From: Candidatus Brocadiaceae bacterium
GTDB lineage: Bacteria > Planctomycetota > Brocadiia > SM23-32
Assembly: GCA_012728835.1 (NCBI GenBank)
Contig: JAAYEJ010000024.1
Span: forward strand, 1-51,873
DNA length: 51,873 nt
Direction of reading: 5' to 3'
This document shows positions 19,197 to 49,480 of this stretch, one piece after another. The notes beneath the pieces are model-generated. The model saw nothing but the letters and a program-made list of their open reading frames with translations. It made no database searches and was not told where the DNA came from. Each line of letters begins with the position of its first letter. Positions within the stretch are counted from its first letter, which is position 1. The translations under genes and the position numbers were made by a program.

Positions 19197-19230
19197 CCGG
19201 ATACCGCACCATGCCATCGGGGGGCCCGAC

Positions 19231-21066
19231 GTGAGCTGGCACGAACGGGGTCCCAGCTTTCGGATGGGCGGCGGGGGCGGACCGCGCCGGCGCATGATGC
19301 TGCTGGCGGCCGAGAAGCCGAAGAGCGGCCGCCGCGTGTTCGCGCGCCTCTGGGGCTACCTGCGCCGCCGCACGGCCGCGCTGCTGGTCATCTTCCTGCT
19401 GATCATCGTGGCCGCCGCCGTCGACCTGGTCAACCCGCTGATCCTGCGCACGGCGATCGACGATTACGTCATGGCCGGCCGGATGGGCGGGCTGCCGGGC
19501 GTCGTTGCGCTGCTGGCGGGCGTTGCGCTGCTGCGCGTGGCGGCGAACTGGCTGCAGGCGTTCCTCATGGTCGGCGTGGCCCAGCGCACCGTGTTCGACC
19601 TGCGCCGCGCGCTGTTCACACGCCTGCAGGCGCTGTCCGTGCGCTACTACGACGAGCACTCGGCCGGCGACCTGATGAGCCGCTTCACCAATGACCTAGA
19701 CAACGTCAGCACCACGCTCAGCGACAGCGTGTCGCGCTTCTTCCTGGGGACGATCCGGCTGCTCGGGGCGGTCTCGATCATGTTCTACCTGAGCTGGCGG
19801 CTGGCCCTGATCTCGCTGGCCACCGTGCCGATCGTCATGGGTCTGGTCCGATGGGTCTCCCGGCACACGCTGAAGGGATACCGCGATCAGCAGGAGGCGC
19901 TGGGGACGCTCAACGGGCTGATCGAGGAGACCATCACCGGCGCGCGCGTCATCAAGGCCCATGCCTGCGAACCGCGAGTCCTGGGGGAGTTCGACGAGGC
20001 CAACGCGCGCCTGCGCTCCGCCGCGATGCGGGCAATGACCTTTGCCATGCTGCTGCCGTCGCTCATGCACCTGGCGAACAACCTGAGCTTCGCCGTCACG
20101 ACCGGCGCGGGCGCATGGATGGCCATCCGCGGCTGGGTCAGCGTCGGAACGATCGTCGCCTTCCTCCGCTACTCGGAGCAGTTCGGGCGGCCGCTGAACG
20201 AGATCGCCAACGTCTTCAACACCATCCAGGCCGCCCTGGCCGGGGCCGAACGCGTCTTCGAGGTCATCGATCAGGAGCCGGAGACGACCTCCCCGCCCGA
20301 CGCCGTCCCGCTGGGGCGCGTGACGGGCGACATCGAGTTCGACGACGTGACGTTCGCCTACGAACCCGGCGTGCCGGTGCTCCGCAACGTCAGCTTCCAT
20401 GCCAGGCCCGGGCAACGGGTCGCGCTGGTCGGCCCGACCGGCGCGGGCAAGACGACCATGGTCAACGTGCTCGCCCGCTTCTACGACGTGGACTCCGGCA
20501 CGATCCGGATCGACGGCTGCGACCTGCGCCGCTTCCGCAAGGACGACCTGCGCCGTCAGCTCGGCATCGTGCTGCAGGACAGCTTCCTGTTCGGCGGCAG
20601 CGTGATGGAGAACATCCGCTACGGGCGGCTCGAGGCGAGCGATGACGAGGTCGTCGAGGCGGCCAGGGCGGCCAACGCCGACGCCTTCATCCGCCACCTG
20701 CCCCGGGGCTACCACTCCACCCTGGCCGAGCGCGGGGCCAACCTCAGCCAGGGGCAGCGCCAGCTCCTGACGGTCGCCCGCGCGCTCCTGGCCGACCCGG
20801 CCATCCTGGTGCTGGACGAGGCGACCAGCAGCGTCGACACGCGCACGGAGCGCCACATCCAGGAGGCGCTCGGGCGCCTCATGACCGGCCGCACGAGCCT
20901 GGTCATCGCCCATCGGCTCAGCACCATCCGGGACGCCGAGATGATCCTGGTCATCGACGGCGGCCTGATCGTCGAGCGCGGCCGCCATGCGGATCTTATG
21001 GAGCGGCGGGGCTTCTACCACCGGCTCTACGTCAGCCAGTTCAAGGGCCACGCCGCGCCGGAGTGA
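19231..21066 (+). CDS. ABC exporter half-transporter with complete ATP site
   Basis: The 611-residue protein has an exporter membrane domain followed by an ATPase with Walker A GPTGAGKTT, Q-loop LQDSFLFGGS, signature LSQGQRQ, Walker B ILVLDE with the catalytic Glu, and the switch His in IAHR. The signature is LSQGQ rather than LSGGQ, as often seen in one half of heterodimers. It starts with GTG after a run of G and lies 34 bp after the first subunit. The N-terminus (WHERGPSFRMGGGGGPRRRM) is a Gly/Arg-rich extension before the first helix, common in this subunit class. The substrate is unknown; lipids or drugs are typical. Confidence 0.9.
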   Translation: MSWHERGPSFRMGGGGGPRRRMMLLAAEKPKSGRRVFARLWGYLRRRTAALLVIFLLIIVAAAVDLVNPLILRTAIDDYVMAGRMGGLPGVVALLAGVALLRVAANWLQAFLMVGVAQRTVFDLRRALFTRLQALSVRYYDEHSAGDLMSRFTNDLDNVSTTLSDSVSRFFLGTIRLLGAVSIMFYLSWRLALISLATVPIVMGLVRWVSRHTLKGYRDQQEALGTLNGLIEETITGARVIKAHACEPRVLGEFDEANARLRSAAMRAMTFAMLLPSLMHLANNLSFAVTTGAGAWMAIRGWVSVGTIVAFLRYSEQFGRPLNEIANVFNTIQAALAGAERVFEVIDQEPETTSPPDAVPLGRVTGDIEFDDVTFAYEPGVPVLRNVSFHARPGQRVALVGPTGAGKTTMVNVLARFYDVDSGTIRIDGCDLRRFRKDDLRRQLGIVLQDSFLFGGSVMENIRYGRLEASDDEVVEAARAANADAFIRHLPRGYHSTLAERGANLSQGQRQLLTVARALLADPAILVLDEATSSVDTRTERHIQEALGRLMTGRTSLVIAHRLSTIRDAEMILVIDGGLIVERGRHADLMERRGFYHRLYVSQFKGHAAPE

Positions 21067-21076
21067 GGCGCGCGCC

Positions 21077-22444
21077 TCATGTCAGCCGCACAAAGGCGAC
21101 GCTGTCGGCAGGCACGTAGACATGGCAGTTGAACGTCTGCGAGACGGAGACCGCGCGTTGCTCGACCGGTTCGAGTTCCAGCGTCTCCTCGCACCAGCGG
21201 GCGTCGCCGTCCACGCGCCGAAGGGTCAGGGTGCGCACGCCGGGCGTCAGGTTGCGGAACGTCAGATTGGCGGCGCGGTCCTGCGGTTCGTCGGCGTTGT
21301 GGTTCACGATCATCACGCCGACGGCATGCCCGCAGCGGCCGGCGAGGACGCGCAGGCCGTGCGGCGCCTCAACGGGAAGGCGCGCCTCGCCCAGTTGCGC
21401 GAGCATCTGGTAGACGAAGTACTGCGGCCGGACCTCTCCGCCCACGCCGAACAGGCCGAGCCTGTGCGGGATCTCGTTCCAGTGCCGCGTCATGAGGCGC
21501 ACGCCGTTGTCCGAGAAGAACGGCTCGAAGTCCTCATGGAAGCAGGTCTGGTCCCAGATGTGGTAGTAGAAGGACCAATCGAGTCCGGCCTCCATCATGT
21601 CCAGGATGGCGGCGGCGACGATGGCGGCCCGGCGCGGATCGCGGGCCTGCTCGGCGACCGAGACCTTGAGCGCGAGGTCGCTGTTCCACTCCGTGACCAG
21701 CGTCTCCGGCCGCCGGCCCGGGTAGCCGTCCAGCACCTTGCGGATCTGCCGCACGCACGCCGCGTGCTTCTCGGGTGAGTCGTGGTACAGGTGCCAGGAG
21801 ACGAAGTGGAGGGGGGTGTCCGTCTGTGCGCAGAACTCGACCAAGCCGGGCAGCAGGGCGTGGCCCGCGCTCGCCAGGGCGGGCCCGCCGACCCGGGCCT
21901 CGGGGAAGACCTCCAGGACCGGGCGGACCGTCATCGCGTAGTACTCGGCGTACTCGGCGGGATCCTTGATGAGGTAGGGGCAGCCGCCGTTCTCGCCGAT
22001 GTCGGGCTCGTTGCCGATCTCCCAATGGGTGACGACCCGCCGCTGGACGCTGTAGCGGCGCACCAGTTCCCGGACGACGTTCTGCCACTCGGCCACGTCG
22101 CGCGGGCGCCAGATGCTCTGGTCGATCTCGGGATAGAGGGCCTTCGGCTTGATCGTGACGGCGGCGACGACCTTCGCGCCGGTCCTCTCCAGGGCATCCA
22201 TGTAGGGATCGAGCCGGCTCCAGTCGAAGCGGCCTTCGCCCCTGTAGACCCGGAAGAACTCCTGGATGAAGATGCGGATCAGGCGCGGCCGGAGCCGGCG
22301 GGCGTCCTCCACAACGCGGCCCGGCAGGGGCAGCCAGTTGACTCCGCCGTGCCCCAGGGAATGGCGCCACGTTTCGAGCGGCTCGCCGTTCGGCTTCGCG
22401 TCGACCGTCACGTCCGTCAGTTCGTTCGGCAGGTTGAGACGCAT
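21077..22444 (-). CDS. GH39-like clan A glycoside hydrolase
   Basis: The 455-residue protein looks like a (beta/alpha)8 glycosidase of clan GH-A. The acid/base Glu is in HWEIGNEPD (Glu146) and the nucleophile Glu is in TLVTEWNSD (Glu252). That spacing suits GH39 and related families, which include beta-xylosidases and alpha-iduronidases. A small beta-sandwich domain ends the protein (VGVMIVNHNADEPQ onward). No signal peptide is present, so it should act on imported oligosaccharides. It is the last gene of the 12-gene minus-strand operon, 12 bp after the preceding gene, and its stop lies 10 bp from the convergent ABC gene. Confidence 0.8.
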   Translation of the reverse strand: MRLNLPNELTDVTVDAKPNGEPLETWRHSLGHGGVNWLPLPGRVVEDARRLRPRLIRIFIQEFFRVYRGEGRFDWSRLDPYMDALERTGAKVVAAVTIKPKALYPEIDQSIWRPRDVAEWQNVVRELVRRYSVQRRVVTHWEIGNEPDIGENGGCPYLIKDPAEYAEYYAMTVRPVLEVFPEARVGGPALASAGHALLPGLVEFCAQTDTPLHFVSWHLYHDSPEKHAACVRQIRKVLDGYPGRRPETLVTEWNSDLALKVSVAEQARDPRRAAIVAAAILDMMEAGLDWSFYYHIWDQTCFHEDFEPFFSDNGVRLMTRHWNEIPHRLGLFGVGGEVRPQYFVYQMLAQLGEARLPVEAPHGLRVLAGRCGHAVGVMIVNHNADEPQDRAANLTFRNLTPGVRTLTLRRVDGDARWCEETLELEPVEQRAVSVSQTFNCHVYVPADSVAFVRLT

Positions 22445-22456
22445 GGAACTCTCCGC

Positions 22457-24319
22457 TCAGAGCCGGCGCCAGGAGTGGGAAGACAGCTGACCTGTTTCGG
22501 CCGTCTCCGCATCGTGCTCGGACAGGTTGGCGACCACGCGCGTGCCGTCCGCGAAGGTGGTCGCCTGGACGGCCCGATCCTCGGACAGGAACTCATGGGA
22601 GACCATCTCGTGCTCGCCGATCTGCTTATGCAGCCGGCTCACGGGCAGCGCCTCCCGCAGCGCCTCCTGCACCCCGGATTCCTCGAGCCGCACGAGGTAC
22701 GAATACGTCTCCCGCGTCTCGATGTTCACCCAGCCGTACTGCTTGCCGAAGGGGAAGACGTTCGGCGGGCAGCCGTAGAGGGCGTCCATCGACGCCTTCA
22801 GCGCGGGCGCGCCGCAACCCGTCGTGCCGATGCCGTGCGGCAGATCCTGCAAGCCGAACCCCGGATGCGCATTGTAGTTGTGCACCTCCCACCAATCGTG
22901 GATGCAGGAGTCGTGGAAGACGAGCATCGTCATGGGCACCGGCACGCAGCCGGCGCTCCACGTGCGGGGCGGCATCATCTTGGTCGAGCCGATGTCGTAC
23001 CAGCCCGTGTGGTAGTCGTTGAACCCCTCGCTGGAGACGGCGCGGTTGCCGACCGTCTCGTCGCTGAACAGCCGGCGGACCCAGTCCATGTCCTCGACGC
23101 GGCCCATGGGGCGGTTGCCGTGCAGCTCGTGGTCCGTGTCGAAGCAGCGTCTGCCGGACCACGTGGCGCTCACGTCGAAGTGCAGCCAGTCCATGGCCGC
23201 CATGTCGCCGGCGAGCCTGCTCTTGACGTGCTCGGCCTGGTAGGGGGTGCAGACGAGGTACCAGCGCTGCTCGTCGATCTTCCAGTTCGGGATGGGGCGC
23301 CCGTCCGGCCCCTTTTTGAAGATCGCGTGCATGGCCTCCGAACCGTCGTCCAGCCCTTCGATGACCCACGCCCACGGGCCGACGTGGGCGCCGTCCACGG
23401 CCTTGACGGCCGCGATGGTCTCGTCGGTGAGCCAGATCGGCGCGTCGCCGCCCATCTGGAAGTCGAGCGAGTACTGGAACATGCGGACGGGGTAGTAGAA
23501 GACGGACTCGAAGCCCATGCGGCGGAGTGCTGCAGCGCCGGCGGCGTAGTCGAGATCGGGGCATTTGTTGTACCCCACGAAGGCCATGAGCGCCCCGAAC
23601 AGGTCGCGCAGGATCGGCTTGCGCCCGATCTTCTCCTCCCACGGGACGAACTCCCCGCGGTCCTCGAGGCGGGCGCGGTAGCACTTGCAGGCGGCCGTCA
23701 GGTCCGCGTCCGTGGGGTAGATCCGCACCCGGGCGCCCGTCCACCCGTCGATGGGGCAGCGCTCGTGGGCGAACTGGAAGTAGGGCCCGTCCGGAGACTG
23801 CCCCAGCCTGGCCGTCCAGTTGGCGGGGCTCTCGTGGCAGACCATCAGGCCCCCGCGGCTGCCGAGGACCGCCGCCATCGACATCGAGAAGCTCATGTGG
23901 CCGCCGTGGCCGAGCGTCTGTTCCCACGCTTCGCCCGTCCCGCTCAGCAGCACGCCCTGGTAGAGGGGCGCGGCCACCTGCCGAGGCCCCGCGTCCGGCA
24001 GCAGCGGGCCGGGCAGCGACACCGCTTCGACGTCCTCCGCACTGCAGTCCAACCGCACCTCTACGTGATCCTCGGCGGGCAGGTAGAGATGGGCGAACCC
24101 GCCGCCCGCCGTCGTGTAGCGGACCTCGATGCCGCCCTCGGCCCGCCGGGCGGCGCCCTCCGGCAGCGGCCGAAGGGCTCGGTCATCCCCTCGGAGGCGG
24201 TAGCCGGCCCGCGACAGATCCACGTGCCAGCGGCAGCCCCGCCTGCGATCCGTGATGGCGATTGACGAACCGTCTTCCGCGATGGCCAGCGATATCCCGG
24301 TGGACGTCATTTCGATCAT
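22457..24319 (-). CDS. Putative glycoside hydrolase of the DUF5696/GH101-like type
   Basis: The 620-residue protein starts with a beta-sandwich region (about 1-200: ISLAIAEDGSSIAITDRRRG onward). A barrel-like region follows, containing LMAFVGYNKCPDL, PWAWVIEGLDD and LHFDVSATWSGRRC, with a string of Asp/Glu residues after strands. The layout resembles the large family around endo-alpha-N-acetylgalactosaminidases and DUF5696 proteins. I cannot assign the catalytic pair with certainty; the Asp in HFDVSA is a candidate nucleophile. No signal peptide is seen. The ATG at 24319 follows GGGGGAG. Spacings of 13 and 12 bp place it in the operon. The family call is tentative. Confidence 0.55.
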   Translation of the reverse strand: MIEMTSTGISLAIAEDGSSIAITDRRRGCRWHVDLSRAGYRLRGDDRALRPLPEGAARRAEGGIEVRYTTAGGGFAHLYLPAEDHVEVRLDCSAEDVEAVSLPGPLLPDAGPRQVAAPLYQGVLLSGTGEAWEQTLGHGGHMSFSMSMAAVLGSRGGLMVCHESPANWTARLGQSPDGPYFQFAHERCPIDGWTGARVRIYPTDADLTAACKCYRARLEDRGEFVPWEEKIGRKPILRDLFGALMAFVGYNKCPDLDYAAGAAALRRMGFESVFYYPVRMFQYSLDFQMGGDAPIWLTDETIAAVKAVDGAHVGPWAWVIEGLDDGSEAMHAIFKKGPDGRPIPNWKIDEQRWYLVCTPYQAEHVKSRLAGDMAAMDWLHFDVSATWSGRRCFDTDHELHGNRPMGRVEDMDWVRRLFSDETVGNRAVSSEGFNDYHTGWYDIGSTKMMPPRTWSAGCVPVPMTMLVFHDSCIHDWWEVHNYNAHPGFGLQDLPHGIGTTGCGAPALKASMDALYGCPPNVFPFGKQYGWVNIETRETYSYLVRLEESGVQEALREALPVSRLHKQIGEHEMVSHEFLSEDRAVQATTFADGTRVVANLSEHDAETAETGQLSSHSWRRL

Positions 24320-24332
24320 GGGGGCACTCCCC

Positions 24333-25010
24333 CTAGAGAACGCCGTACTTGTCGTAGACCTCGCGGAGCGTCTTGCCGGCAAGCAGTTCGGCGCGGGAGG
24401 CCGACTCCTTGCCCGCCTTCTCTCGCGCGCGCTCCAGCACCTCGTCCTCGACCTGTCTCGGGATGACGACGACGCCGTCGAAGTCGGCGAACACCAGGTC
24501 GAGCGGCTGCACCAGCACGTCGCCGCACGTGATGGGCACGTCGTAGGCCATGACCCGCCCGCGCCCCTGCGAGTCGAGCGGCCGGATCCCGGCGCAGTAG
24601 ACTGGGAAGCCCATGTCGATGATGCGGTTGCAGTCGCGCACCTGGCTGTCGCAGACGCAGCCGACGGCGCCGTTGCGCTGCGCCACCGTGCTCATCAGCT
24701 CACCCCAGGGGGCGTTGGTCCCGCCGTAGTCGGTGGAGTGGACGGCGACGTCGCCGGGGCCGAGGGAGTCCATGGCTTCGATCTCCAGGCCGTACGGGTC
24801 GTCTTCGACGATGTAGTCCGTCTCCATCCAGCGGAAGGTGCGCGCGCGCCCGACGAAGCCGCAGTTGCGGCGGCCGGGCAGCAGGGGGCGGAGGCGCTGG
24901 TGCATGGCCTGCCGCCTGAACCCCATGCCGTCCAGGATGTCGCAGACCGCCGGCACGTAGAGATGGCTGTGTATGAAATCGAAGCGTTCGCCGTCGTCCA
25001 CAAACGTCAT
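24333..25010 (-). CDS. RraA-like aldolase/dimethylmenaquinone methyltransferase-family protein
   Basis: The 225-residue protein has the RraA-fold pattern: PAVCDILDGMGFRRQAM, CGFVGRARTF, GDVAVHSTDYGGTNAPWGEL, STVAQRNGAVGCVCDSQVRD and a C-terminal VFADFDGVVVIP. The GELMSTVA and DSQVRD elements hold the pyruvate and metal-binding residues of 4-hydroxy-4-methyl-2-oxoglutarate aldolases. Homologues cleave 2-keto acids or inhibit RNase E. Inside a sugar-acid operon an aldolase or decarboxylase role is more likely. The start has GGAGGA upstream. Spacing to its neighbours is 29 and 13 bp. Confidence 0.78.
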   Translation of the reverse strand: MTFVDDGERFDFIHSHLYVPAVCDILDGMGFRRQAMHQRLRPLLPGRRNCGFVGRARTFRWMETDYIVEDDPYGLEIEAMDSLGPGDVAVHSTDYGGTNAPWGELMSTVAQRNGAVGCVCDSQVRDCNRIIDMGFPVYCAGIRPLDSQGRGRVMAYDVPITCGDVLVQPLDLVFADFDGVVVIPRQVEDEVLERAREKAGKESASRAELLAGKTLREVYDKYGVL

Positions 25011-25039
25011 GGCCAGTCCTCCCGGCGCGTCGCGCGCCT

Positions 25040-25819
25040 CTACCAGACGAGCGGCTCCATGATCTTCAGGATCCGCCCCTCGCACTCCGGCAAGGCCTGC
25101 CGGAGAAGGTGGATGAACGTGTCGGGGTTCTCCGCGTTCAGCCGCATCAGGTCGTAGTGCATGGGAACCGCAACGTCGGGCCGCACGGCCCGCGTCAGCC
25201 GGACGGCCTCGTGCACGTTCAGGTTGCCGTACTTGCCGTTGATGCAGACCAGCAGCACCTGCGCCCGGGGCGCGGCCCGTTCGAGCAGATCGGACCACGC
25301 GGTGTCGGACGAGTGGTAGACGCTCTTCCCGCCGGGCAGTTCGAGGCGATAGCCGCATGTGTCGAGTACGTCGGGCCCGGTGGGCACGGCGTAGACGCCG
25401 CGCAGCCGGATGCCGTAGAGTTCGGCCTCGTCGCCTGCGTCGACTCGCAGGACGTTTTCAGAGGGGATGCCCAGTTCGCGCAGTCTCCGGCAGGCCAGGC
25501 GCGGCGCCACAAATCGCGTCGAGGCGGGGTGTCGGTAGCGCCCGATCGTCTCCGGATCGAGGTGGTCCAGGTGGTCGTGCGTCACCACGAACATGTCCAC
25601 CTGGAGGTCTTCGGGTTCGATGGGTGAGGGGACGGCCCGCGCGAACGCCGGAGACGCTTTGCCGACGGAGTCGGTGAGGTAGGGGTCGATGGCAACCGTC
25701 ACGCCGCCTCCGCGAATGAGAAAGCCCGCCTGCCCGAGCGGCCAGAGCGCGGCCTGATCGTCGGCAAGCCGGTAATCTCGGACACCCGCCATGGCGCCGG
25801 CGCTTGTGCTCACTTTCAC
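25040..25819 (-). CDS. UlaG-like metallo-beta-lactamase-fold hydrolase
   Basis: The 259-residue protein has the zinc site VVTHDHLDHLDPET (HxHxDH), then a YHSSDTAWSDL segment and VAVPMHYDLM near the C-terminus. The first strand pair, LWPLGQAGFLIRGGG followed by VAIDPYLTDSVG, is typical of UlaG-type enzymes, whose founding member opens L-ascorbate-6-phosphate lactone. A lactonase role would fit an operon with sugar-acid dehydratases and a dehydrogenase. The GTG at 25819 overlaps the TGA of the previous gene (GTGA), which supports that start. A GTG two codons later and an ATG at 25792 are alternatives. Confidence 0.75.
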   Translation of the reverse strand: MKVSTSAGAMAGVRDYRLADDQAALWPLGQAGFLIRGGGVTVAIDPYLTDSVGKASPAFARAVPSPIEPEDLQVDMFVVTHDHLDHLDPETIGRYRHPASTRFVAPRLACRRLRELGIPSENVLRVDAGDEAELYGIRLRGVYAVPTGPDVLDTCGYRLELPGGKSVYHSSDTAWSDLLERAAPRAQVLLVCINGKYGNLNVHEAVRLTRAVRPDVAVPMHYDLMRLNAENPDTFIHLLRQALPECEGRILKIMEPLVW

Positions 25820-26436
25820 GCCTCCCTGTCCCGAAGTTCGCGGGCCGGGTTGCCCGCCATCACGGCGTCCGGCGGGACGTCTTTCGTCACGACGGCTCCC
25901 ATGCCGACGAGGCTGTTCCGGCCGATGCGCAGGTTCTGTCGCACCGTGCAGGCCTGGCCGAGATAGCAGCCGGCCTCCACGTGCACGCCTCCGGCGAGTG
26001 TCACCCCGCTGCAGACGACGGCGCGGTCTTCCAGAACGTCGTCATGGTTGACCACGGCGCCGGCCAGCATGAAGACGAAGTCGCCGAGGACGGCGTTCAG
26101 GCCGACGTAGCCGTGGGGGTAGATCACGCAGCCGACCCCGATGCGGGCCGTCTGCGAGACGAAGGCGGACGGATCGATCAGCGTGGCGATGCGATCGCGC
26201 GGCAGTTCGATCGGCTCACGATACTCGTTGTCCGGCACCACAAGACAATCCGGATGGCGTTCCAGCGCCTCCCGCGTGCCGAGCACCGGGTGGCCGTTGA
26301 TCTCGCCGCCGGCCAGATCGGCCCGGCGCTCGGGCACCACAAAGCCCCGGAGGCGCCACGAGCCACCGCACCGCCCGGCGATCTCCGCCATCTCGGCCCC
26401 GTGCACGCCCGCCCCGAGTATGATCAGGTCCCTCAC
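25816..26436 (-). CDS. NeuD-like sugar O-acyltransferase with left-handed beta-helix
   Basis: The 206-residue protein opens with a small Rossmann-like part (DLIILGAGVHGAEMAEIAGR) that in NeuD/PglD proteins binds the nucleotide sugar. A left-handed beta-helix of hexapeptide repeats follows (ARIGVGCVIYPHGYVGLNAV, VHVEAGCYLGQACTVRQNLR) with the active-site His in NHDDV. Such proteins transfer acetyl groups to sialic acid or amino sugars. The ending VVTKDVPPDAVMAGNPAREL is typical of the family. Its presence in a catabolic operon without glycosyltransferases is unusual. Confidence 0.82.
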   Translation of the reverse strand: MRDLIILGAGVHGAEMAEIAGRCGGSWRLRGFVVPERRADLAGGEINGHPVLGTREALERHPDCLVVPDNEYREPIELPRDRIATLIDPSAFVSQTARIGVGCVIYPHGYVGLNAVLGDFVFMLAGAVVNHDDVLEDRAVVCSGVTLAGGVHVEAGCYLGQACTVRQNLRIGRNSLVGMGAVVTKDVPPDAVMAGNPARELRDREA

Positions 26437-26450
26437 GTCGTCCTCCGCAA

Positions 26451-27620
26451 TCAGAGCACGCGGTGCTTCTCCACGATCTCATCGTCGACCTCCACGCCGA
26501 GGCCCGGGCCGTTCGGGATGGGGATCCGCCCATCCTTCATGCGGATCGGCTCCCTGCAGATCCGGTTCAAGAGCGAGGCCGACGAGACGTTGTATTCGAG
26601 GTAGAGTGCGTGCATCTGGTAGGCGTTCAGATGCAGGCTGGCCGCCTTCAGCAGGTCGGTCAGCCAGGCATGGGGCACGCAGTCGATCTGCCGGCGCTGC
26701 GCCAGGTCCGCCACGCGCCGGCCCACGCTCAGGCCGCCGCAGCGGCTCAGGTCGGGCTGCAGCACGTCGACCCGCCCATGGTCCGCCAGGCGTTCGAACT
26801 CGCTCTCTCCCGCGGCCTGTTCGCCGGCCGCTATGCGCAGCCGGTCGGCCGCCGCCGCCACGGCCGCGTAGCCGGCGACGTTCTCCGGATGCAGGAAGTC
26901 TTCGAGCCAGAACACGTTCAGCTCTTCCAGTTCCCGGATCAGCCGGATCCAGTCCTTGATCGGGCGCGGCCGGTAGACGTTGGCGGGATCGATGCCGTAC
27001 CAGCCGGCGTCGACCATCAGCGCCACGTCCGGGCCGGCCTCCTCGCGGGCCGCCCGCACCAGTTCCACGTCCATCTGCAGGTCGCGGCCGAAGACGCCCC
27101 AGCCGAACTTGACCGCGCGGAATCCCTGTGCGACGTATTCCGCGACGGCCCGTTTCATGGCCGATGCCGAAGGCCGGAAGAGGGTCGAGGCGTACGCCGT
27201 CACGCTGTCGCGGTAGCGGGCGCCGAGCAGCGCCCAGACCGGCTGGCCGAGCGCCTTCCCGGCGATGTCCCAGAGGGCGATGTCCGCGCCGGAGATCATC
27301 TGCATGCCGGCGCCCTGGCGGCCGTAGTAGCCCAGGCAGCGGTACATCTTCTGCCAGAGCCGCTCGCGTTCCAGGGGGTTCTCCCCGATCAGGGCGGCGC
27401 GCAGGGACTCGAAACCGACCTGCCCTCCCGAAGGCGCCTCCACGATGGCCCGGCCCACGTGGGGCTGCGTCTCCACGTCGGACCAGCCGGTGATGCCTTC
27501 GTCCGTCCGGATGCGGATCAGGCTGATGAACCGCACCCCGTGCGCCTCGGCCGCCTGTGCCGGGTCGCTGTAATCCTTCCCGGTGTCCAGCACCATCGCC
27601 TCGACGCCGGTGATCTTCAT
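26451..27620 (-). CDS. Enolase-superfamily sugar-acid dehydratase/racemase (mandelate racemase group)
   Basis: The 389-residue protein has the enolase-superfamily capping domain and barrel. Metal ligands are Asp194 (LMVDAGW), Glu230 (VFWLEDF) and Glu257 (IAAGEQ). A His307-Asp280 dyad (PHAW and QPDLSRCGG) is the general acid/base of the mandelate-racemase group. Lys161 in VKFGW stands at the other face. These residues suit syn-dehydration of an aldonate or uronate to a 2-keto-3-deoxy acid. It overlaps the upstream dehydrogenase gene by one base (TGATG). The exact substrate is not readable. Confidence 0.85.
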   Translation of the reverse strand: MKITGVEAMVLDTGKDYSDPAQAAEAHGVRFISLIRIRTDEGITGWSDVETQPHVGRAIVEAPSGGQVGFESLRAALIGENPLERERLWQKMYRCLGYYGRQGAGMQMISGADIALWDIAGKALGQPVWALLGARYRDSVTAYASTLFRPSASAMKRAVAEYVAQGFRAVKFGWGVFGRDLQMDVELVRAAREEAGPDVALMVDAGWYGIDPANVYRPRPIKDWIRLIRELEELNVFWLEDFLHPENVAGYAAVAAAADRLRIAAGEQAAGESEFERLADHGRVDVLQPDLSRCGGLSVGRRVADLAQRRQIDCVPHAWLTDLLKAASLHLNAYQMHALYLEYNVSSASLLNRICREPIRMKDGRIPIPNGPGLGVEVDDEIVEKHRVL

Positions 27621-28651
27621 CAGGCTTCCTCCGCCTCCGGGATGATGGCCACCTTCATCGCCTCCTCGCGCCCCCGTTCCGCCAGACGGAACGCCTCTCG
27701 ATAGTCGCGCATGGGCAGGCGATGCGTCACGAGTTCCCCCAGCGCCAGCGAAGGCTCGCGGAGCAGGGCCACCGCTTCGTCGAAGCGGTCCTGATCGTTG
27801 CAGGCGCCGACGATCTCCAGTTCGCGCACGTGCACGTCGAACAGGTCCAGGGAGACGGGCCCCGGCACGGGCGAGAACAACACGAGGCGGCCCTTCGGCC
27901 GAAGCAGCGACAGGCCTTCGCGCACGGCCTCGGGGGAGCCGGCGGCGGCGATGACGGCGTCGTAGCCGGACGCCCCTCCGGCGGCGGCGCGCAGGGCGGC
28001 CGCGGCATCCTCGCCCAGGGCGCGGGTGTTGACCGTCGTGGCGCCGGCCGCAAAGCCCAGCCTGAAGTCGTGCCGCCCCGCCACGACCACGCACGACGGC
28101 TTCAGCCCGGCCGCGAGCCTCGCGATGAGGATGCCGAACGGCCCGTCGCCGATGATCAGCAGGCGCGCGCCCGTCGCGAGCCGCGCCTGGGCCAGCGCCT
28201 CCAGGCAGACGCTCACGGGCTCGGCCAGGGCCGCCACCGCCCAATCCACGTCCGGCGGTAGGCGCCGCGCGCGGTCCGCGCGCACCACGTAGTACTCGGC
28301 GAACGTCCCGGGCATATTCAGCCCGAAGTGGCCCATCCGCGAGCAGAGGTGGCCCATGCCGGCCCGGCAGTTCTCGCACTCGCGGCAGGGGTGGACGGGA
28401 TGGGTCGCGACGGCATCACCCGGGGAGAACCCCTTCACCTGCGAGCCGACGGACTCGACCGTCCCCGCGCCCTCATGCCCGATGGCCGCCGGCAGCCGGA
28501 TGCCGAAGGGGTTCTCGCGCACGTCGTTCAGATCGGACGTGCAGATGACGGCGGCCCGCGTTCGCACCAGCAGCTGGTCGTCCGCCGGCACGGGGCGGGG
28601 GACGTTCGCCGGTTCCAGCCGCCCGACGGACTGCAGAACGAGGGCTCTCAT
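27620..28651 (-). CDS. Zinc-dependent medium-chain alcohol/polyol dehydrogenase
   Basis: The 343-residue protein has the MDR pattern. Catalytic zinc residues lie in VICTSDLND and IGHEGAG, a structural zinc loop has four Cys (HPCRECENCRAGMGHLC), and a Rossmann motif follows in IIGDGPFGIL. This is the layout of sorbitol, threonine and L-iditol dehydrogenases. It likely oxidises a sugar or sugar-acid hydroxyl with NAD(P). The ATG overlaps the TGA of the amidohydrolase gene (ATGA), and its own stop overlaps the start of the dehydratase, so three genes are chained together. Confidence 0.87.
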   Translation of the reverse strand: MRALVLQSVGRLEPANVPRPVPADDQLLVRTRAAVICTSDLNDVRENPFGIRLPAAIGHEGAGTVESVGSQVKGFSPGDAVATHPVHPCRECENCRAGMGHLCSRMGHFGLNMPGTFAEYYVVRADRARRLPPDVDWAVAALAEPVSVCLEALAQARLATGARLLIIGDGPFGILIARLAAGLKPSCVVVAGRHDFRLGFAAGATTVNTRALGEDAAAALRAAAGGASGYDAVIAAAGSPEAVREGLSLLRPKGRLVLFSPVPGPVSLDLFDVHVRELEIVGACNDQDRFDEAVALLREPSLALGELVTHRLPMRDYREAFRLAERGREEAMKVAIIPEAEEA

Positions 28652-29490
28652 GTTTTCACCCCCAGGAGGTCGAGCGAGTCCCGCGCCAGTATCTCCTCCA
28701 GCGCCGAATCCGAGACGCGCGGAAGGCCGCTGTCGCCCGTCACCCGGTTCACCCCGCGCAGGCCGTCGATGGACTCCCCGCTGCGGGCGAACGGATAGTC
28801 CGTGCCGAACAGCAGCTTGTGCATCACGCGGTATTCCTGCGCCAGCATCAACGTGTTGTAGAACTGCCACGGGCGGTAGTAGAGCGCCGCGACGTCGGCG
28901 TAGACGTGCGGATGCTTGCGGATGACGGCGATGCATTCGCCGCCGAACGGGTGGCCCAGGTGGGCGAGCACCATGCGCAGGTCCGGATAGCGCATGGCCA
29001 CCTCATCCCAGAGCCACGGGCGTCCGAAGGAGAGCGGGGCGAGGCGGTTGAACGTGGTCCCCGTGTGGAAGATGATCGGCAGGCCGCGGTCCTGGCAGTA
29101 CTCATAGACCCCCTGGCAGCGGGGATCGCGCGGGTCGACGCCCGCGTAGATCGGCCCGATCTTGACGCCCTTCAGGCCGAAGGTCTCGATGCCTTCCCGC
29201 AACTCCTCCATGTGCTCCGGTTGGGTGGGATCGCAGGAGGCGAAGCCGATCAGCCTGTCCGGCGCCTGCGAGACCACGCCGGCGACGTACTCGTCCGGCA
29301 CCCAATAGCCCGTGCGCCGCGCCTTGAGCCCGAAGACGACGGTGCGGACGAAGGGCGCCATGTCCTGCAGGAGGGCGTCGAGCTGCACGGTCAGGTCCAG
29401 GCGGTAGCCGCGCGATAGGTCGGTTTCCCGCACGGTGTCCTCGCGGAAATGCTGCGCCTGGTCCCAGACGTGCGCGTGGATGTTCTGCAT
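28648..29490 (-). CDS. Amidohydrolase-2 family metal-dependent hydrolase
   Basis: The 280-residue protein begins MQNIHAHVWDQ, with the HxH metal ligands at residues 5 and 7. It continues with GLKGVKIGPIYAG, IIFHTGTTF (His), VLAHLGHPFGGE (His) and FGTDYPFARS (Asp), in the order found in amidohydrolase-2 TIM-barrel hydrolases and decarboxylases. In sugar-acid operons such proteins often open lactones or cleave 2-keto acids. It follows the GNAT gene by 18 bp and overlaps the dehydrogenase gene. Confidence 0.83.
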   Translation of the reverse strand: MQNIHAHVWDQAQHFREDTVRETDLSRGYRLDLTVQLDALLQDMAPFVRTVVFGLKARRTGYWVPDEYVAGVVSQAPDRLIGFASCDPTQPEHMEELREGIETFGLKGVKIGPIYAGVDPRDPRCQGVYEYCQDRGLPIIFHTGTTFNRLAPLSFGRPWLWDEVAMRYPDLRMVLAHLGHPFGGECIAVIRKHPHVYADVAALYYRPWQFYNTLMLAQEYRVMHKLLFGTDYPFARSGESIDGLRGVNRVTGDSGLPRVSDSALEEILARDSLDLLGVKT

Positions 29491-29508
29491 GGCGCGGCGC
29501 CCCTACAG

Positions 29509-30381
29509 TTACAGGTCCTTCATCCATTCCGTGATCAGGTAGCGGCGCCGGTAGCCGGCCCGCTCATAGGCCCGCAGGGCCGGGAAGTTCTCCAGCCCCG
29601 TGGCTATGAGGGCCTCGCCGGCCCCCATGTCCGCCAGGCGGCGAAGCGACATTTGCACCATGATCCGCGCCAGGCCGCGGCTGCGGTGTTCCGGCTGCGT
29701 CGTCACGTTGCCGATCTGCCCGACGAGCGTCCCGTCCGGCGAGCGCAGATGGGGGTAGAGCCGCGCGTAGCAGTGCGCCGCCTTTCTCCCGTCCCGAACG
29801 GCGTGATATCCAAAAACATCGGCGTCGTATTCCGGGGCCGTATCGACTTCGATGACCTCGTAGCCCTCCGGCACGGCCTCCTGCCGGATCGGCTCCGAAA
29901 GGTCCCGGATGAGGATGACGTCCGAAGGCTTCATCCGGTAGCCGGCGCGGATGAAGGATTCGATGGCGCCGTCGGCCCAGGATGGCAGGTAGGGCTCCTG
30001 GCCGATGACGAAGCCGCCGTAGCACGCGCCCGACCGCCAGCCCGGCCCGCGCGCATGCTTCAGGTTGCGCTCCGACAGCAGCCGGCCCCATTCCTCCAGA
30101 AGCCAGGCCCCGTCCCCGGCGTTGCCTGGCGGGACGGCGAGGATGAGGATGCCGCCGGTCTCGGCGTCGACCCGTTCCCCGTGGATGAACGCACGCGGCC
30201 GGCCCCCACGCCACGCCGTCAGCATCAGGTCGGGCTCGAAGCCCGGCTGCGTCCGCCAGTGCCGGACCAGCGCCTCGTCGATCGGACGGCTGTAGGGCCA
30301 GCCGGCCGTGAAGGCGTTCACCACTGCGATCTCCGGACCCGGCCGGTCGGGATCAAACGGCCTCAGCTCACGTTCCGCCAT
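29509..30381 (-). CDS. GNAT-family N-acetyltransferase
   Basis: The 290-residue protein has a clear C-terminal GNAT domain. A beta-strand GTLVGQIGNVTTQPEHRSRG leads into the acetyl-CoA loop RSRGLARIMVQMSLRRL, followed by ALIATGLENFPALRAYERAGY. The first 130 residues look like a second, degraded GNAT unit (GGILILAVPPGNAGDGAWLL, then SERNLKH), as in mycothiol-synthase-like tandem proteins. The substrate is unknown. The gene lies 14 bp after the PIG-L gene, so deacetylation and acetylation genes are neighbours. Confidence 0.75.
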   Translation of the reverse strand: MAERELRPFDPDRPGPEIAVVNAFTAGWPYSRPIDEALVRHWRTQPGFEPDLMLTAWRGGRPRAFIHGERVDAETGGILILAVPPGNAGDGAWLLEEWGRLLSERNLKHARGPGWRSGACYGGFVIGQEPYLPSWADGAIESFIRAGYRMKPSDVILIRDLSEPIRQEAVPEGYEVIEVDTAPEYDADVFGYHAVRDGRKAAHCYARLYPHLRSPDGTLVGQIGNVTTQPEHRSRGLARIMVQMSLRRLADMGAGEALIATGLENFPALRAYERAGYRRRYLITEWMKDL

Positions 30382-30395
30382 GCCTGGTTCCTCCT

Positions 30396-31109
30396 TCAGG
30401 GGAGGACATTATATGGCTTGATCGCCCCGCGCGCCCGCATGGGGACGAACGCTTCGGCGAAGCCGCAGCCCGCCTGCTGCCCCCAATAGGCGTCGGGCCG
30501 GCCGCAGAGTTCGGCAAAGCCCGCCTTCACTCCCGCAGTGGCGCGCATCGCCTTCTCCTGCGACTCGTGGCGACCCAGCAGGCGCACCTTCTCCTGTTCC
30601 TGGCCGCTGATGTCGACGAAGTGCGTCGGCACAAAGCCGAAAGGCCCGTGCGGCTCGACCATGAAGACCGCCGGATGCCGGGGCAGCGGGGGCGAGTCCG
30701 TGGGCAGCACCGGCAGGCACGACTGCATCACGCAGTGCCGCGCCAGCCACGACGTCATCCCATGATCGGCATTGTAGTCCTGCTCGAAGTGAGTGAAGAC
30801 GAGGTGCGCGCCCGACCAGCGGATCGCCTCGATGACCTTCATCCGCACGTCCGGCGTGTCGTAGAGGAATTCGTCCGGCTCCCGCAGGTTCAGGTACTCC
30901 GCCCCGATCGCTGCCGCAAGGGCCGACATCTCTGCATGTCGGATCCGGGCGGCTTCGTCTGCGGCGATGTCGGGCTGCTGGACGAAGCCCTTGGCGCCGT
31001 CCGTGAGCGTGACGAAAAAGAGCCTGTCGCCGCGATCCCGGCACTTCAGCATCGTGCCGAGGCAGCGCATCTCGTCGTCCTGATGGGCCATCAGGGACAG
31101 CACGTTCAT
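30396..31109 (-). CDS. PIG-L (LmbE) family deacetylase
   Basis: The 237-residue protein starts MNVLSLMAHQDDEMRCLGTM. This is the PIG-L zinc motif AHPDDE with Pro replaced by Gln; the Asp-Asp-Glu metal residues remain. FFVTLTDGAKG, EYLNLREPDEF, LVFTHFEQDYNADHGMTSWL and a C-terminal His complete the pattern. Relatives remove N-acetyl groups from GlcNAc-type sugars. The ATG at 31109 follows GAGGAG. It lies between the second enolase-like gene (34 bp) and the GNAT gene (14 bp). Two other PIG-L genes occur at 43186 and 44025. Confidence 0.85.
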   Translation of the reverse strand: MNVLSLMAHQDDEMRCLGTMLKCRDRGDRLFFVTLTDGAKGFVQQPDIAADEAARIRHAEMSALAAAIGAEYLNLREPDEFLYDTPDVRMKVIEAIRWSGAHLVFTHFEQDYNADHGMTSWLARHCVMQSCLPVLPTDSPPLPRHPAVFMVEPHGPFGFVPTHFVDISGQEQEKVRLLGRHESQEKAMRATAGVKAGFAELCGRPDAYWGQQAGCGFAEAFVPMRARGAIKPYNVLP

Positions 31110-31143
31110 CTCGCCACTCCTCTGAGGTAGACCCCGTATGCGC

Positions 31144-32541
31144 TCAGACGACCAGCGGGTCGAACTCCTCGAACCGGTAGCCGAGCCCCGGGCCGCGCAG
31201 GCTCCCGGTGCGCAGCAGGCCGTCTCGGGCGCGGAAGATGCCCGGATGGACCTGCTCCTCGCGGCGGGAGGCCCCCGGGCAGAACTGGCGCGCGTTCGCC
31301 TCCACGCCCATGATGGGGCGGATACGCGCCGCAAAGCCCACCGACTGGACGAGCCCGAGGCCGGTCAGCGTCAAGTCCTGCACGCTGTAGGGCACGCCCG
31401 CCTCGGTGGCCTTCGCGAGCATCAGGAGCGAGTTCGACTGCCCCTTGCAGGTCTTCAGCGCCACGCCCGTGTAGCCCTGGCGCAGCGCCTCGTCCATGGC
31501 CTCCAGGCCGCTCAGTGCCTCGTCGGCGAGGATGGGCTTGAGTTCCGCCGCCCGCGCGACGTCCAGCGGCCGCTCGAACAGGTGCCGCGTCGTCGGCTGC
31601 TCCACGTAGAGGATCGCGTCGTATGCCTCGGGGCTGCGCTCGCGTACCTTGTGCAGATACTCGATGACGTACTCGACGTCCCGGCACATCTCGTTGGCGT
31701 CGGAGGTCAGGTAGACCTCGGACCGGCCCGACCCGGCCAGCGCCTCGCGCACGACGTGGTGCACGTCGACCGTGCGTTCGACGTCCCAGTCCAGGTCGTT
31801 CCCGCGCATCTTCACCTTGTGGCAGAAGACGCCGTCGCGCTTCACCCAGCCGGCCAGGTCGGCGGGGTATTCGTCGCGGGGGTCGTCGGGGCCGACGTCG
31901 CCCGGGGTCAGCGGGTCGTAGCCGCCGACGAGGTGGAAGACCGGCAGCGTCTCGTCGTAGCGCGGCTTCAGGTAGTCGGCCGGGTACCTGCCCTTGAACG
32001 CGGGGCCGAGGTAGCGGCTCAGGTCCCACGAGACGTGCTCCGGGCCGAGCGCCGCATAGGCGTCGAGCCCCAGGGCATTGCCGAAGGCGTCGTGCAGCGC
32101 GGCGTCGAAGGCCGCCCCGACGACCAGCGCGCACATGCGCGGCATCGGCTCGCCGGGCGCATACTGCTCGATGATCTCGTCGGCCAGTTCCAGCAGCAGC
32201 GGCTCGGTTTCGAGCGCATGCTCCATCGGGTGGCCGTATGCATCGCGCCGGCGCAGTTCGCCGCCGTAACGCACGGCCAGGTTGCGCATGAAGTCGGTGA
32301 CCATGAACGAGGGCACGACCTGCGAAGGCCAGCTCCAGGCGGCCCCGAGCACCATCGAGCCGCGTCCGACCGCGCGGCGGCCGTCGCGCGTCTCGACCAG
32401 CACCGCCACGTTCAGGTCCGCACCGGACCGGGCGCCCGGCCCCTTGACGGCCCCGCCGAACTTGAGCGTCGCGCGGTACGCCTTGTAGGAGAAGGCCGTC
32501 TCCACGTCCAGAATCCGCACGTCGGTCTCGAGCCGCCGCAT
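31144..32541 (-). CDS. Second enolase-superfamily protein, divergent
   Basis: The 465-residue protein is longer than most mandelate-racemase relatives (about 370-400). It has a KVKMRGN strand with two Lys, then YLTSDANEM (Asp ligand), AILYVEQPTTRHLF (Glu ligand), KPILADEALSG (Asp/Glu ligand) and TGVALKTCKGQS (Lys), so the metal site and a Lys-based acid/base pair typical of muconate-lactonising-like enzymes appear present. The long N-terminal part and the insert around ETLPVFHLVGGYDPLTPGDV are extra. Its role beside another enolase-superfamily gene suggests a sequential or alternative dehydration step. The ATG at 32541 has a GAAGGGG sequence upstream. Confidence 0.75.
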   Translation of the reverse strand: MRRLETDVRILDVETAFSYKAYRATLKFGGAVKGPGARSGADLNVAVLVETRDGRRAVGRGSMVLGAAWSWPSQVVPSFMVTDFMRNLAVRYGGELRRRDAYGHPMEHALETEPLLLELADEIIEQYAPGEPMPRMCALVVGAAFDAALHDAFGNALGLDAYAALGPEHVSWDLSRYLGPAFKGRYPADYLKPRYDETLPVFHLVGGYDPLTPGDVGPDDPRDEYPADLAGWVKRDGVFCHKVKMRGNDLDWDVERTVDVHHVVREALAGSGRSEVYLTSDANEMCRDVEYVIEYLHKVRERSPEAYDAILYVEQPTTRHLFERPLDVARAAELKPILADEALSGLEAMDEALRQGYTGVALKTCKGQSNSLLMLAKATEAGVPYSVQDLTLTGLGLVQSVGFAARIRPIMGVEANARQFCPGASRREEQVHPGIFRARDGLLRTGSLRGPGLGYRFEEFDPLVV

Positions 32542-32569
32542 GGTCGGCCCCCCCTTCGCACGTCCGGCG

Positions 32570-33496
32570 TTAGTCGTCCGATATGGACAGTTTGCACACA
32601 ACCGCGCCGACGACCACCATGGCACACGCCACCCAGAGGGTCAGCCCCGGCCGGATCCCCAGGCGGAGGGAAGAGACGAACATCGAGAGAACCGGCGTCA
32701 GGTAGGAGAACGCCGCAACCAGGATGATGCGCCCGTTCCGCATGGCCAGGTCCCAGCACGTGTAGCCGAGCAGGTTGGGCACGAGGGCCAGGAAGAGCAG
32801 CTCCCACAGGGCGCGCGGGCTCCATTGCGGCTGCTCGGCGACGAAAAGGCGCAGCAGGAAGAAGGCCCCCGCCGTGGCCAGAAAGAAGAACGGCACGCCC
32901 GTGCTGCCCCCGTTGCCCGCCCATCTGCGGCTCAGGTTCGAGTAGAGCCCCCAGGAGACCGCCGCTCCCAGGGCGAGCAGGTAGGGCGCCGGCGCGCTCA
33001 GGAAGCCTTCGGCCAGGCCGGACCAACTCAGCCGCCCCTCGTGCGACATGGCCAGCAGCACCCCCGTCAGCGCGATGACGACGCCGGGCATGAGCCAGAG
33101 CCGGGCCCGGCGCTTCAGGATCCAGACCGAGAACAGCAGCGTCAGGCCGGGCCAGAGGTAGTTGATGACGCTGACCTCCAGCACCTGCTGCCGCGTGACC
33201 GCCCGGCCCACCGCCAGGCAGAGGCCCAGTTCGCAGCAGACGAACAGAGCGCCGCAGCCGAGCAGGTAGGCCGGCGGCAGCTTCAGCGCGCTGACCAGCC
33301 CGCCCCGCTGCAGCGCCAGCAGCGCGCACCCGGCCACGCCCGCCACCAGGAACATGAAGGCGCCCATCGTGACCGGCCCGAGGAACTCGGACGCCGTGCG
33401 CGTGAAGGCGATCGTGGAACTCCAGCAGGCGATGGCGATGAAGCCGAACACCGTGTTCAGCGGAGCGTGCGAGTGGACGCCTTCGGTCTTCTCCAT
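32570..33496 (-). CDS. EamA/DMT-family transporter, YddG-like
   Basis: The 308-residue protein has ten hydrophobic helices in two EamA halves. The stretch VINYLWPGLTLLFSVWILKR is typical of YddG-type drug/metabolite transporters, which export aromatic amino acids or related metabolites. It is the first gene of the 12-gene minus-strand operon, just after a strong promoter, so it may move the substrate or product of the pathway. The ATG at 33496 was preferred over one five codons upstream because AAGGACG precedes it. Confidence 0.85.
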   Translation of the reverse strand: MEKTEGVHSHAPLNTVFGFIAIACWSSTIAFTRTASEFLGPVTMGAFMFLVAGVAGCALLALQRGGLVSALKLPPAYLLGCGALFVCCELGLCLAVGRAVTRQQVLEVSVINYLWPGLTLLFSVWILKRRARLWLMPGVVIALTGVLLAMSHEGRLSWSGLAEGFLSAPAPYLLALGAAVSWGLYSNLSRRWAGNGGSTGVPFFFLATAGAFFLLRLFVAEQPQWSPRALWELLFLALVPNLLGYTCWDLAMRNGRIILVAAFSYLTPVLSMFVSSLRLGIRPGLTLWVACAMVVVGAVVCKLSISDD

Positions 33497-33541
33497 GGAA
33501 CGTCCTTGCACCGGCAGGGCGGGGAGGGGCAGACGACTGCA

Positions 33542-33569
33542 AGCATACCGTACGGGGCGGTTCTGTCAA
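33542..33569 (-). promoter_or_regulatory. Promoter of the 12-gene catabolic operon
   Basis: The minus strand carries a perfect TTGACA (33569-33564), a 16-bp spacer and TATGCT (33547-33542). Transcription would begin about 40 bp before the transporter ATG. All twelve genes down to 21077 follow with gaps of 34 bp or less, and I see no other clear promoter among them. Confidence 0.7.
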
Positions 33570-33600: not shown

Positions 33601-34320
33601 TCAGCCGGCGGACCACAGGCGGATGGTCCCGGTCGGATCGACGTACCCTCCGTCGGCATCCGGCAGGTCCGTCCATTCCTCATCGCCGATGGGCTCGGAG
33701 GCCAGCAGGAGCATCGGCGGCTCGGCGCTCCGGGGGCTCAGCCGTTTCAGGGGGTTGCCGCTCCGGTAGAAGTGGAGGCAAACGCCGTCAGAGAGCAGTA
33801 TGGCCGTGCCCGTCTGCGGCCGCACGCGGGGCATGATCTCGGCCAGACAGGCCGCCACGGCTTCCGGCGGCGCCGCCGGATACTCGGCGCATGTCTCCCG
33901 CATCTCCGTCAGGATGCGGCAGAACAGCAGTTCACTGTCGGTCTGCCCCAGCGGCGCGAGGTCCGGCGCAATGGCGTTCCGGAATTCGTCATCGTTCAGG
34001 ACCGTGCCGTTGTGGGCGAACATCCAGCCGTGGCGCAGGAACGGGTGGGTGTTCGGCAGCGTATGAGCGCCGCGGGACGCGTTGCGGATATGGGCGATGA
34101 AGGTGGTCCCGCGGGCGCTGCGGGCGTCTCGCACGAACTGCTCGTCCTCATGCGCGGGCCTCGGCGCGCGGGTCAGCGTCCAGGCGCCGCTGCGGAAGGC
34201 GGCGATGCCCCAGCCGTGCGGGTGCTTCGGCCCCTGCTCGCGCAGGGCGTTGCGCGCGTCGACGAGGTAGTAGCTCAGATCGCGCTCGCGTCCACTGACC
34301 ATTCCCAGCAAACGGCACAT
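33601..34320 (-). CDS. Class II glutamine amidotransferase-like protein (YafJ type)
   Basis: The 239-residue protein begins MCRLLGMVSG, so Cys2 is available as the N-terminal nucleophile after Met removal. Further marks are HPHGWGIAAF, TTFIAHIRNAS, HPFLRHGWMFAHNGTV and QTDSELLFCRIL, the ordered motifs of the YafJ/GATase-4 class II amidotransferases. These hydrolyse a glutamine-like amide; the acceptor for this stand-alone type is not well known, although some remove gamma-glutamyl groups. GGAGGAA precedes the start. It is divergent from the FAD oxidoreductase. Confidence 0.88.
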   Translation of the reverse strand: MCRLLGMVSGRERDLSYYLVDARNALREQGPKHPHGWGIAAFRSGAWTLTRAPRPAHEDEQFVRDARSARGTTFIAHIRNASRGAHTLPNTHPFLRHGWMFAHNGTVLNDDEFRNAIAPDLAPLGQTDSELLFCRILTEMRETCAEYPAAPPEAVAACLAEIMPRVRPQTGTAILLSDGVCLHFYRSGNPLKRLSPRSAEPPMLLLASEPIGDEEWTDLPDADGGYVDPTGTIRLWSAG

Positions 34321-37736: not shown

Positions 37737-37749
37737 GGAGGCCGACGTG

Positions 37750-40425: not shown

Positions 40426-40479
40426 GCGCGGCCGTCCGCCATGCGGCAGGGCGATGAGACAATCGTGCGGAGGAGTGGG

Positions 40480-43149: not shown

Positions 43150-43185
43150 ACGTGGACGGAACGCCGTCCCGAATGGAGTGGAGCG

Positions 43186-43977: not shown

Positions 43978-44024
43978 ACGGCGTCCCGCGCCCTGTCCCG
44001 CCGTTTGCAGAGGAGGTGAGCAGT

Positions 44025-44807: not shown

Positions 44808-44928
44808 GGGGCCGCGCCCGAAGCGCACACGGTCCGTCCGACGCCCCCACGGGCGAACCTGCGCTTGCGCCTGCCGCCGCCGGCGGGTATCGTCGAAGAC
44901 TCATCCAAGAGAGCGGGAGTCGCCGGCC

Positions 44929-46453: not shown

Positions 46454-46477
46454 GGTCTGTCGATGAGGTGAAGTGAG

Positions 46478-48445: not shown

Positions 48446-48527
48446 ATCCGGCGCTGCCGGGCGGGCATGCGTCCTCGCCCGCTCAGCCTCCGGCCGGGAC
48501 GCCCGTCGATTCAGGAAGGAGCAGGCC

Positions 48528-49340: not shown

Positions 49341-49377
49341 GGCAGCGTCCCTCTGCCGGCCGGATGCGGAGCAGACG

Positions 49378-49406
49378 TTGACAGCATCCTTGCCGGCGAC
49401 TACAGT
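49378..49406 (+). promoter_or_regulatory. Promoter of the second ceramidase-like gene
   Basis: A perfect TTGACA (49378-49383), a 17-bp spacer and TACAGT (49401-49406) lie about 75 bp before the ATG at 49481. Confidence 0.6.
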
Positions 49407-49480
49407 GCGCCGGCGGAGGTACGCGAAGTGCCTCGCGGCGGTGGACGGGGCCGGCGGCCCCCATGCGAAGGAGAGTACCG

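Follow-up and report, generated by a model that had tools for sequence, protein, structure and literature searches.

The carrageenan locus of Zobellia galactanivorans comprises dagB, dauA–D and the gene for the DMT symporter ZGAL_3157 (PMC5698469). Among the enzymes of the RraA-like family, HMG/CHA aldolase depends on an Arg123-Asp124 pair of which the Arg is essential (PMC5065237), and FlDet of alginate catabolism acts as a 2-keto-3-deoxyglucarate dehydratase/decarboxylase (PMC8563752). In glycoside hydrolase family GH129, the enzyme NagBb of Bifidobacterium bifidum carries a catalytic Asp435 (PMC5698469), and Trp398 stacks against N-acetylgalactosamine (GalNAc; PMC8106489). Relatives of these proteins are encoded side by side in the window analyzed here, a stretch of 51,873 nt that constitutes contig 24 (JAAYEJ010000024.1) of an uncultured Planctomycetota metagenome-assembled genome, Candidatus Brocadiaceae bacterium (3.07 Mb, 82 contigs, 97% complete). 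Here, 12 open reading frames (g1–g12) run along the minus strand from 33496 to 21077. They are tentatively read, at somewhat less than an even chance, as an operon for the cytosolic, kinase-free breakdown of sugar acids derived from a glycoside that probably bears an N-acetylated hexosamine. By gene content, the Zobellia locus is the closest characterized counterpart, although two residue positions in g7 and g11 set the operon apart from it.

The genes are separated by gaps of 28, 34, 14, 18, 14, 29, 13, and 12 bp and joined by three overlaps (g5/g6, 4 bp; g6/g7, 1 bp; g8/g9, 4 bp). An independent gene caller based on codon usage returned the same 12 genes and differed only in the start of g9, by 6 nt. 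These coordinates bear out exactly the layout given in an earlier note on this DNA: 12 genes on one strand, no gap wider than 34 bp, and three overlaps. The promoter it had proposed is likewise present, as a motif scan places the sigma-70-like match TTGACA-N16-TATGCT at 33569–33542 on the correct strand, 45 bp 5′ of the first ATG. Since one such match was found in the 17 kb scanned and 1.0 is expected by chance, the promoter argument rests on position, for which coincidence amounts to about 0.3% (a simple proportion judged post hoc). A co-directional gene for a class-II glutamine amidotransferase (GATase_4; 33601–34302 or 34479) stops 104 bp short of the first ATG and could belong to a longer transcript with the operon, so that the 5′ limit is plausible rather than proven. 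On the downstream side, 10 bp separate the last stop codon of the operon from the end of a convergent ABC exporter gene, one of two tandem half-transporter genes (17415–21066) whose products are 39% identical. A terminator-like site was detected neither at the operon's 3′ end nor between the exporter genes and the last stop. By their spacing and orientation, the 12 genes look like a single transcription unit.

The part of this unit that is conserved across genera is smaller. In G003, a genome of the same family but a different genus, g3 and g5–g12 recur in the same order and on the same strand with 71–84% identity (g3, 79%; g5, 73%; g6, 73%; g7, 81%; g8, 73%; g10, 84%), and g1, g2, and g4 are absent from the cluster. 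The conserved core thus consists of g3 and g5–g12, with g1, g2, and g4 as lineage-specific members, and the single 12-gene unit of the earlier note contracts to nine genes. Pairwise dN/dS between the window and G003 is 0.17–0.25 for the core except g12, whose intact portion gives 0.36; the core genes are under purifying selection. The G003 copy is irregular in places. A GH9-like gene interrupts g9, and part of the g9 5′ end is duplicated beside it (G003:C72, 12660–16000). This may reflect either a recent insertion or a misassembly; the downstream part of the interrupted g9 still looks constrained (dN/dS 0.19). The interval between g9 and g10 holds genes for a DegT aminotransferase and a URO-D-like protein, another DegT gene is located 307 bp upstream of g3, and g12 shows a deletion and a frame change, attributable to decay or to an assembly error.

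Among eight family relatives, the core was detected in G003 only, and G001, which represents a third genus, shows just the g11–g12 end on a contig that starts inside g11. Here, the two genes adjoin a further pair that also flanks the G003 cluster (58 and 62% identity), and G001 may therefore carry the core on missing sequence; g12 is 69–72% identical in G001 and G003. Orthologs of g3 and g9 were confined to G003 among 147 relatives, suggesting that they travel together. Conversely, orthologs of g2 in G001 (85%) and G011 (75%) stand alone among unrelated genes such as that for exonuclease VII. The uncharacterized g2-type family is a common solo gene of the phylum (14 of 147 genomes), and a paralog with 38% identity lies elsewhere in the same genome (G000:C26:87693-89012). 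Being outside the core, g2 was misleading at first as a tracer of the cluster. For g4, one partial relative (49%) was identified in G008. The earlier note had regarded scattering of the genes in close relatives as evidence against its proposal: this pattern is seen for g2, whereas the nine-gene core remains together in G003. With g11 and g12 as tracers in 392 genomes, which sample the phylum without exhausting it, only scattered and unlinked homologs appeared outside G003, and all 12 genes were not found together in another genome of this sample, the best being G003 with nine of 12. A search with g5 in 17 genomes likewise gave only scattered homologs outside G003, and plasmid searches returned no match for g11 and only distant family members for g7 and g9.

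The family assignments of the earlier note agree with Pfam and NCBIfam for g1–g10 and g12, and g11, which lacks a Pfam family, is placed with GH129 by profile and fold. The curated NCBIfam cut-offs for a specific function are reached, among g1–g10, by g1 only. The sugar-releasing step of the proposed route would fall to the products of g11 (22457–24319), a GH129-like alpha-glycosidase of the alpha-N-acetylgalactosaminidase type, and g12 (21077–22444), a GH39-like glycosidase (Pfam GH39, 72 bits) with intact catalytic motifs (NEP at 145, TEW at 251). For g11, the profile comparison with NagBb gives an E value of 2.6e-36, and the top Foldseek matches are ZgGH129 and NagBb (E 2.5e-22 for the latter). 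The AlphaFold model has a pLDDT of 73 and is weak at 318–358 and in several other loops, so that pocket detail is unreliable. At the level of the fold, the model scores Z 24–28 against GH129 structures as opposed to 15 or less for other families; superposed on NagBb (Z 24.8, root-mean-square deviation 3.2, 510 residues aligned), it shares the fold over the whole length at about 20% identity. D382 and E431 align to NagBb D435 and E478, the latter of which we take to be the second catalytic residue of NagBb, and both are invariant in six homologs. The g11 product is thus GH129-like with both NagBb catalytic positions kept. The Trp398/calcium-site region of NagBb, which lies between aligned blocks, did not align with g11, where the invariant W346 is a candidate only. 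The retention of both NagBb positions, not shared by DagB, and the presence of a PIG-L deacetylase in the core favor a GalNAc-type substrate. Signal peptides were not apparent by eye in g11 or g12, and a small glycoside is therefore probably imported and opened inside the cell.

That deacetylase, encoded by g3 (30396–31109; Pfam PIG-L 66.6 bits, cut-off 28.2), resembles sugar N-deacetylases, with the motifs HQDDE at 9 and DYNADH at 111; diacetylchitobiose deacetylase and BshB (GlcNAc-malate deacetylase) are among its closest relatives of solved structure. The g6 product (27620–28651; Pfam ADH_N and ADH_zinc_N) is a zinc-dependent polyol/sugar dehydrogenase of the MDR type in which the catalytic Cys, GHE, and the four-Cys structural zinc site are present; it falls below all NCBIfam cut-offs, the nearest being threonine 3-dehydrogenase and scyllo-inosose 3-dehydrogenase. 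Two putative hydrolases complete this part of the core: the Amidohydro_2 protein of g5 (28648–29490; Pfam 106 bits), a hydrolase/decarboxylase and candidate lactonase with intact HAH, HTG, HLGHP, and GTD motifs, and the UlaG-like metallo-beta-lactamase-fold protein of g9 (25040–25819; Pfam Lactamase_B_3) with HDHLDH at 79.

Of the two enolase-superfamily proteins, only that of g7 (26451–27620; Pfam 191 bits), a mandelate-racemase-type candidate, belongs to the core. K171, G173, D204, E240, E267, D290, and H317 are invariant, so that g7 retains the metal-binding residues and the Asp-His dyad known from acid-sugar dehydratases, and by analogy with the known enzymes a dehydratase role is the likeliest. 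No NCBIfam acid-sugar dehydratase equivalog is matched above its cut-off: the galactonate, arabinonate, gluconate, mannonate, and rhamnonate dehydratases all fall short, the best being galactonate dehydratase (181.8 vs. 311). At the position of the catalytic Lys166 of AtGCI and DauB, g7 has Gly173, which is invariant in seven g7-like proteins and leaves only the first Lys of the KxK motif; the closest solved structure is 3sjn (231 bits), ahead of DauB (5olc, 152.5 bits). The divergent g2 protein (31144–32541; Pfam MR_MLE_C, 48 bits only) has been considered a second dehydratase in the earlier note. It carries invariant K242xK244, D281, E314, D340-E341, and K363 (KxK/D/E/DE/KxxK), which is presumably the pattern of the muconate-lactonizing subgroup. 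This signature and its location outside the core lend that role no support, and g2 is probably a lineage-specific passenger.

The RraA-like protein of g10 (24333–25010; Pfam 121 bits), a candidate class II pyruvate aldolase or decarboxylase, shares its family with HMG/CHA aldolase (LigK) and FlDet and has the Arg-Asp pair of the former. The catalytic/metal pair of the RraA aldolases is kept as Arg125-Asp126. However, a Glu replaces the Asp that lies 21 residues before the Arg in the aldolase motif (D-X20-R-D), as it does in the G003 protein. The earlier note had assigned to this protein an aldol cleavage: the Arg-Asp pair agrees with this, but in view of the Glu and of the dehydratase/decarboxylase activity of the related FlDet, g10 may encode either an aldolase or a dehydratase/decarboxylase. 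The remaining core gene, g8 (25816–26436), encodes a NeuD/PglD-like hexapeptide acyltransferase with an NHD motif at 130 (TIGR03570 155.1 bits, below the cut-off of 160.8). Outside the core, g1 (32570–33496) encodes a YddG-like EamA/DMT transporter (Pfam EamA 101 bits; NCBIfam NF008676 239 bits, cut-off 194) and g4 (29509–30381) a GNAT acetyltransferase with an additional N-terminal half (Pfam Acetyltransf_1).

In the proposed route, a small glycoside would enter the cell and be opened in the cytoplasm by g11 and g12, releasing a sugar that is most likely N-acetylated (GalNAc-like). The acetyl group would be stripped by g3 and the sugar oxidized by g6, after which the resulting lactone or cyclic ketone could be opened by g5 and/or g9. 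Dehydration of the sugar acid by g7 would yield a 2-keto-3-deoxy acid, which g10 may either cleave to pyruvate or decarboxylate. With no sugar kinase among the genes, the pathway would proceed without phosphorylation. We infer the catabolic direction, the order of the steps, the substrate, and the roles of g8, g1, and g4 from family logic. A more specific version, in which an alpha-linked N-acetylhexosamine is oxidized to the (N-acetyl)aldosaminate, loses water through the enolase-superfamily enzyme, is deacetylated, and sheds ammonia from an enamine to give the 2-keto-3-deoxy acid that an RraA-family enzyme cleaves to pyruvate, must be considered a long shot; no paper on galactosaminate dehydratases or on such a gene set was found in the open-access literature. 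The catabolic scheme of the earlier note survives in that the genes are co-directional and catabolic-looking, keep their active-site motifs, and include nine that are clustered in G003, but it is not borne out for g2, is one of two options for the RraA-like protein, and offers no place to g8.

Several observations weigh against this breakdown route. The operon contains no solute importer, and g1, whose closest named relatives are exporters, lies outside the core. The NeuD-like acyltransferase, which the earlier note had listed among the products of the operon, is a core member without a clear task or place in the breakdown. The Glu of g10 replaces an aldolase Asp, and the genome holds one weak match to the KDPG-aldolase family. 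Furthermore, the DegT aminotransferases encoded within and next to the G003 cluster would also be at home in the synthesis of amino sugars, the split g9 and frameshifted g12 of G003 indicate that some steps are perhaps dispensable there or that the assembly is wrong, and the substrate itself is a matter of deduction.

The acyltransferase and the DegT genes could be accommodated by a cluster that modifies or synthesizes amino sugars or aminocyclitols. Here, g6 would form a ketone for DegT to aminate (in G003), g8 would add an acyl group that g3 takes off again, and the glycosidases would recycle the product. The resemblance of g6 to inosose and threonine dehydrogenases fits such chemistry, as does a Shinella plasmid whose polyol/inositol-type gene set includes a metallo-beta-lactamase-fold protein 33% identical to g9. 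The operon in the window nevertheless encodes no nucleotidyltransferase, sugar-nucleotide enzyme, glycosyltransferase, or DegT protein, and the dehydratase, the RraA-like protein, and two glycosidases indicate breakdown, making biosynthesis distinctly unlikely. It also seems rather improbable that the locus is a recently assembled directon in which a modest core is joined by unrelated genes of the same strand without a single pathway. This would explain the absence of g1, g2, and g4 from the G003 cluster, the solo occurrence of g2 in G001 and G011, the interspersed GH9, DegT, and URO-D genes, and the restriction of the core among family relatives, but it is difficult to reconcile with nine genes retained in two genera in the same order, with 71–84% identity, purifying selection, and short gaps or overlaps.

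If the operon instead served a neutral or anhydro sugar by a non-phosphorylative route, much as carrageenan degradation handles 3,6-anhydro-D-galactose, the PIG-L protein would act on an unrelated amide or ester. The gene content is attractive in this respect, as the Zobellia locus (PMC5698469) likewise has a GH129-like enzyme, a dehydrogenase, an enolase-superfamily protein, and a DMT transporter, the top fold matches of g11 are ZgGH129 structures, and g7 matches DauB. Against this, g7 has a Gly in place of the catalytic Lys166, g11 retains the second NagBb catalytic position that DagB lacks, the dehydrogenase is a zinc MDR enzyme, a DauC-like kinase is absent, and the deacetylase is part of the core. 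Membership in a carrageenan/anhydrogalactose pathway was therefore rejected on the g7 and g11 residues, and an anhydro- or neutral-sugar operon in general is considered unlikely.

Three further identities were set aside. For the lower protocatechuate/gallate pathway, suggested by an Amidohydro_2 protein together with a LigK-like one, g10 lies far below the LigK-type cut-offs (91.9 vs. 179 and 81 vs. 304.5), the genes include no dioxygenase, and ring-cleavage genes are not nearby. The Thermotoga inositol route, with an IolM-like dehydrogenase and a metallo-beta-lactamase-fold hydrolase, was dismissed on the score of g6 (139.7, cut-off 450), and the open-access literature offered nothing of use on it. 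Bacillithiol or mycothiol synthesis, which would combine PIG-L and GNAT proteins, does not agree with g3 and g4 being far below the cut-offs or with g4 being outside the core.

A second carbohydrate/amide cluster is located on the plus strand of the window (37747–50773). It encodes a tandem pair of GH123-like proteins (54% identical), a tandem pair of PIG-L proteins (70% identical), and two Amidohydro_2 proteins, as well as a pectate-lyase-fold protein, a metallo-beta-lactamase-fold protein, and a weakly ceramidase-like protein. In G003, distant counterparts of the Amidohydro_2 pair (32–35%) lie a short way upstream of the core cluster.

If the breakdown of a decorated glycoside is the correct reading of the operon, it would add the kinase-free use of amino or other decorated sugars to the repertoire of uncultured Planctomycetota. 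It would also provide a testable context for dehydratases of the g7/3sjn kind that carry a K-F-G motif, RraA-like proteins in which the aldolase motif has a Glu, cytosolic GH129-like enzymes, and the solo enolases of the g2 type. Members of large superfamilies are often misannotated, and the conserved nine-gene context narrows the substrates to be considered.

Compared with the carrageenan locus, the operon shares a GH129-like exo-alpha-glycosidase, a sugar dehydrogenase, an enolase-superfamily enzyme, and a DMT transporter, and both routes would lead to a 2-keto-3-deoxy acid. It lacks the kinase, KDPGal aldolase, sulfatases, and carrageenases of Zobellia and instead adds genes for a deacetylase, an acyltransferase, an amidohydrolase, a metallo-beta-lactamase-fold hydrolase, an RraA-like protein, and a GH39-like enzyme. 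The class of the DauA dehydrogenase presumably also differs from that of g6. The kinase-free logic of dehydrogenase, lactonase, dehydratase, and aldolase is the same as in Weimberg/Dahms-type and non-phosphorylative Entner-Doudoroff pathways, with an RraA-like protein replacing the usual aldolase of the DHDPS or HpaI type. The operon is best described as a variant of non-phosphorylative sugar-acid catabolism.

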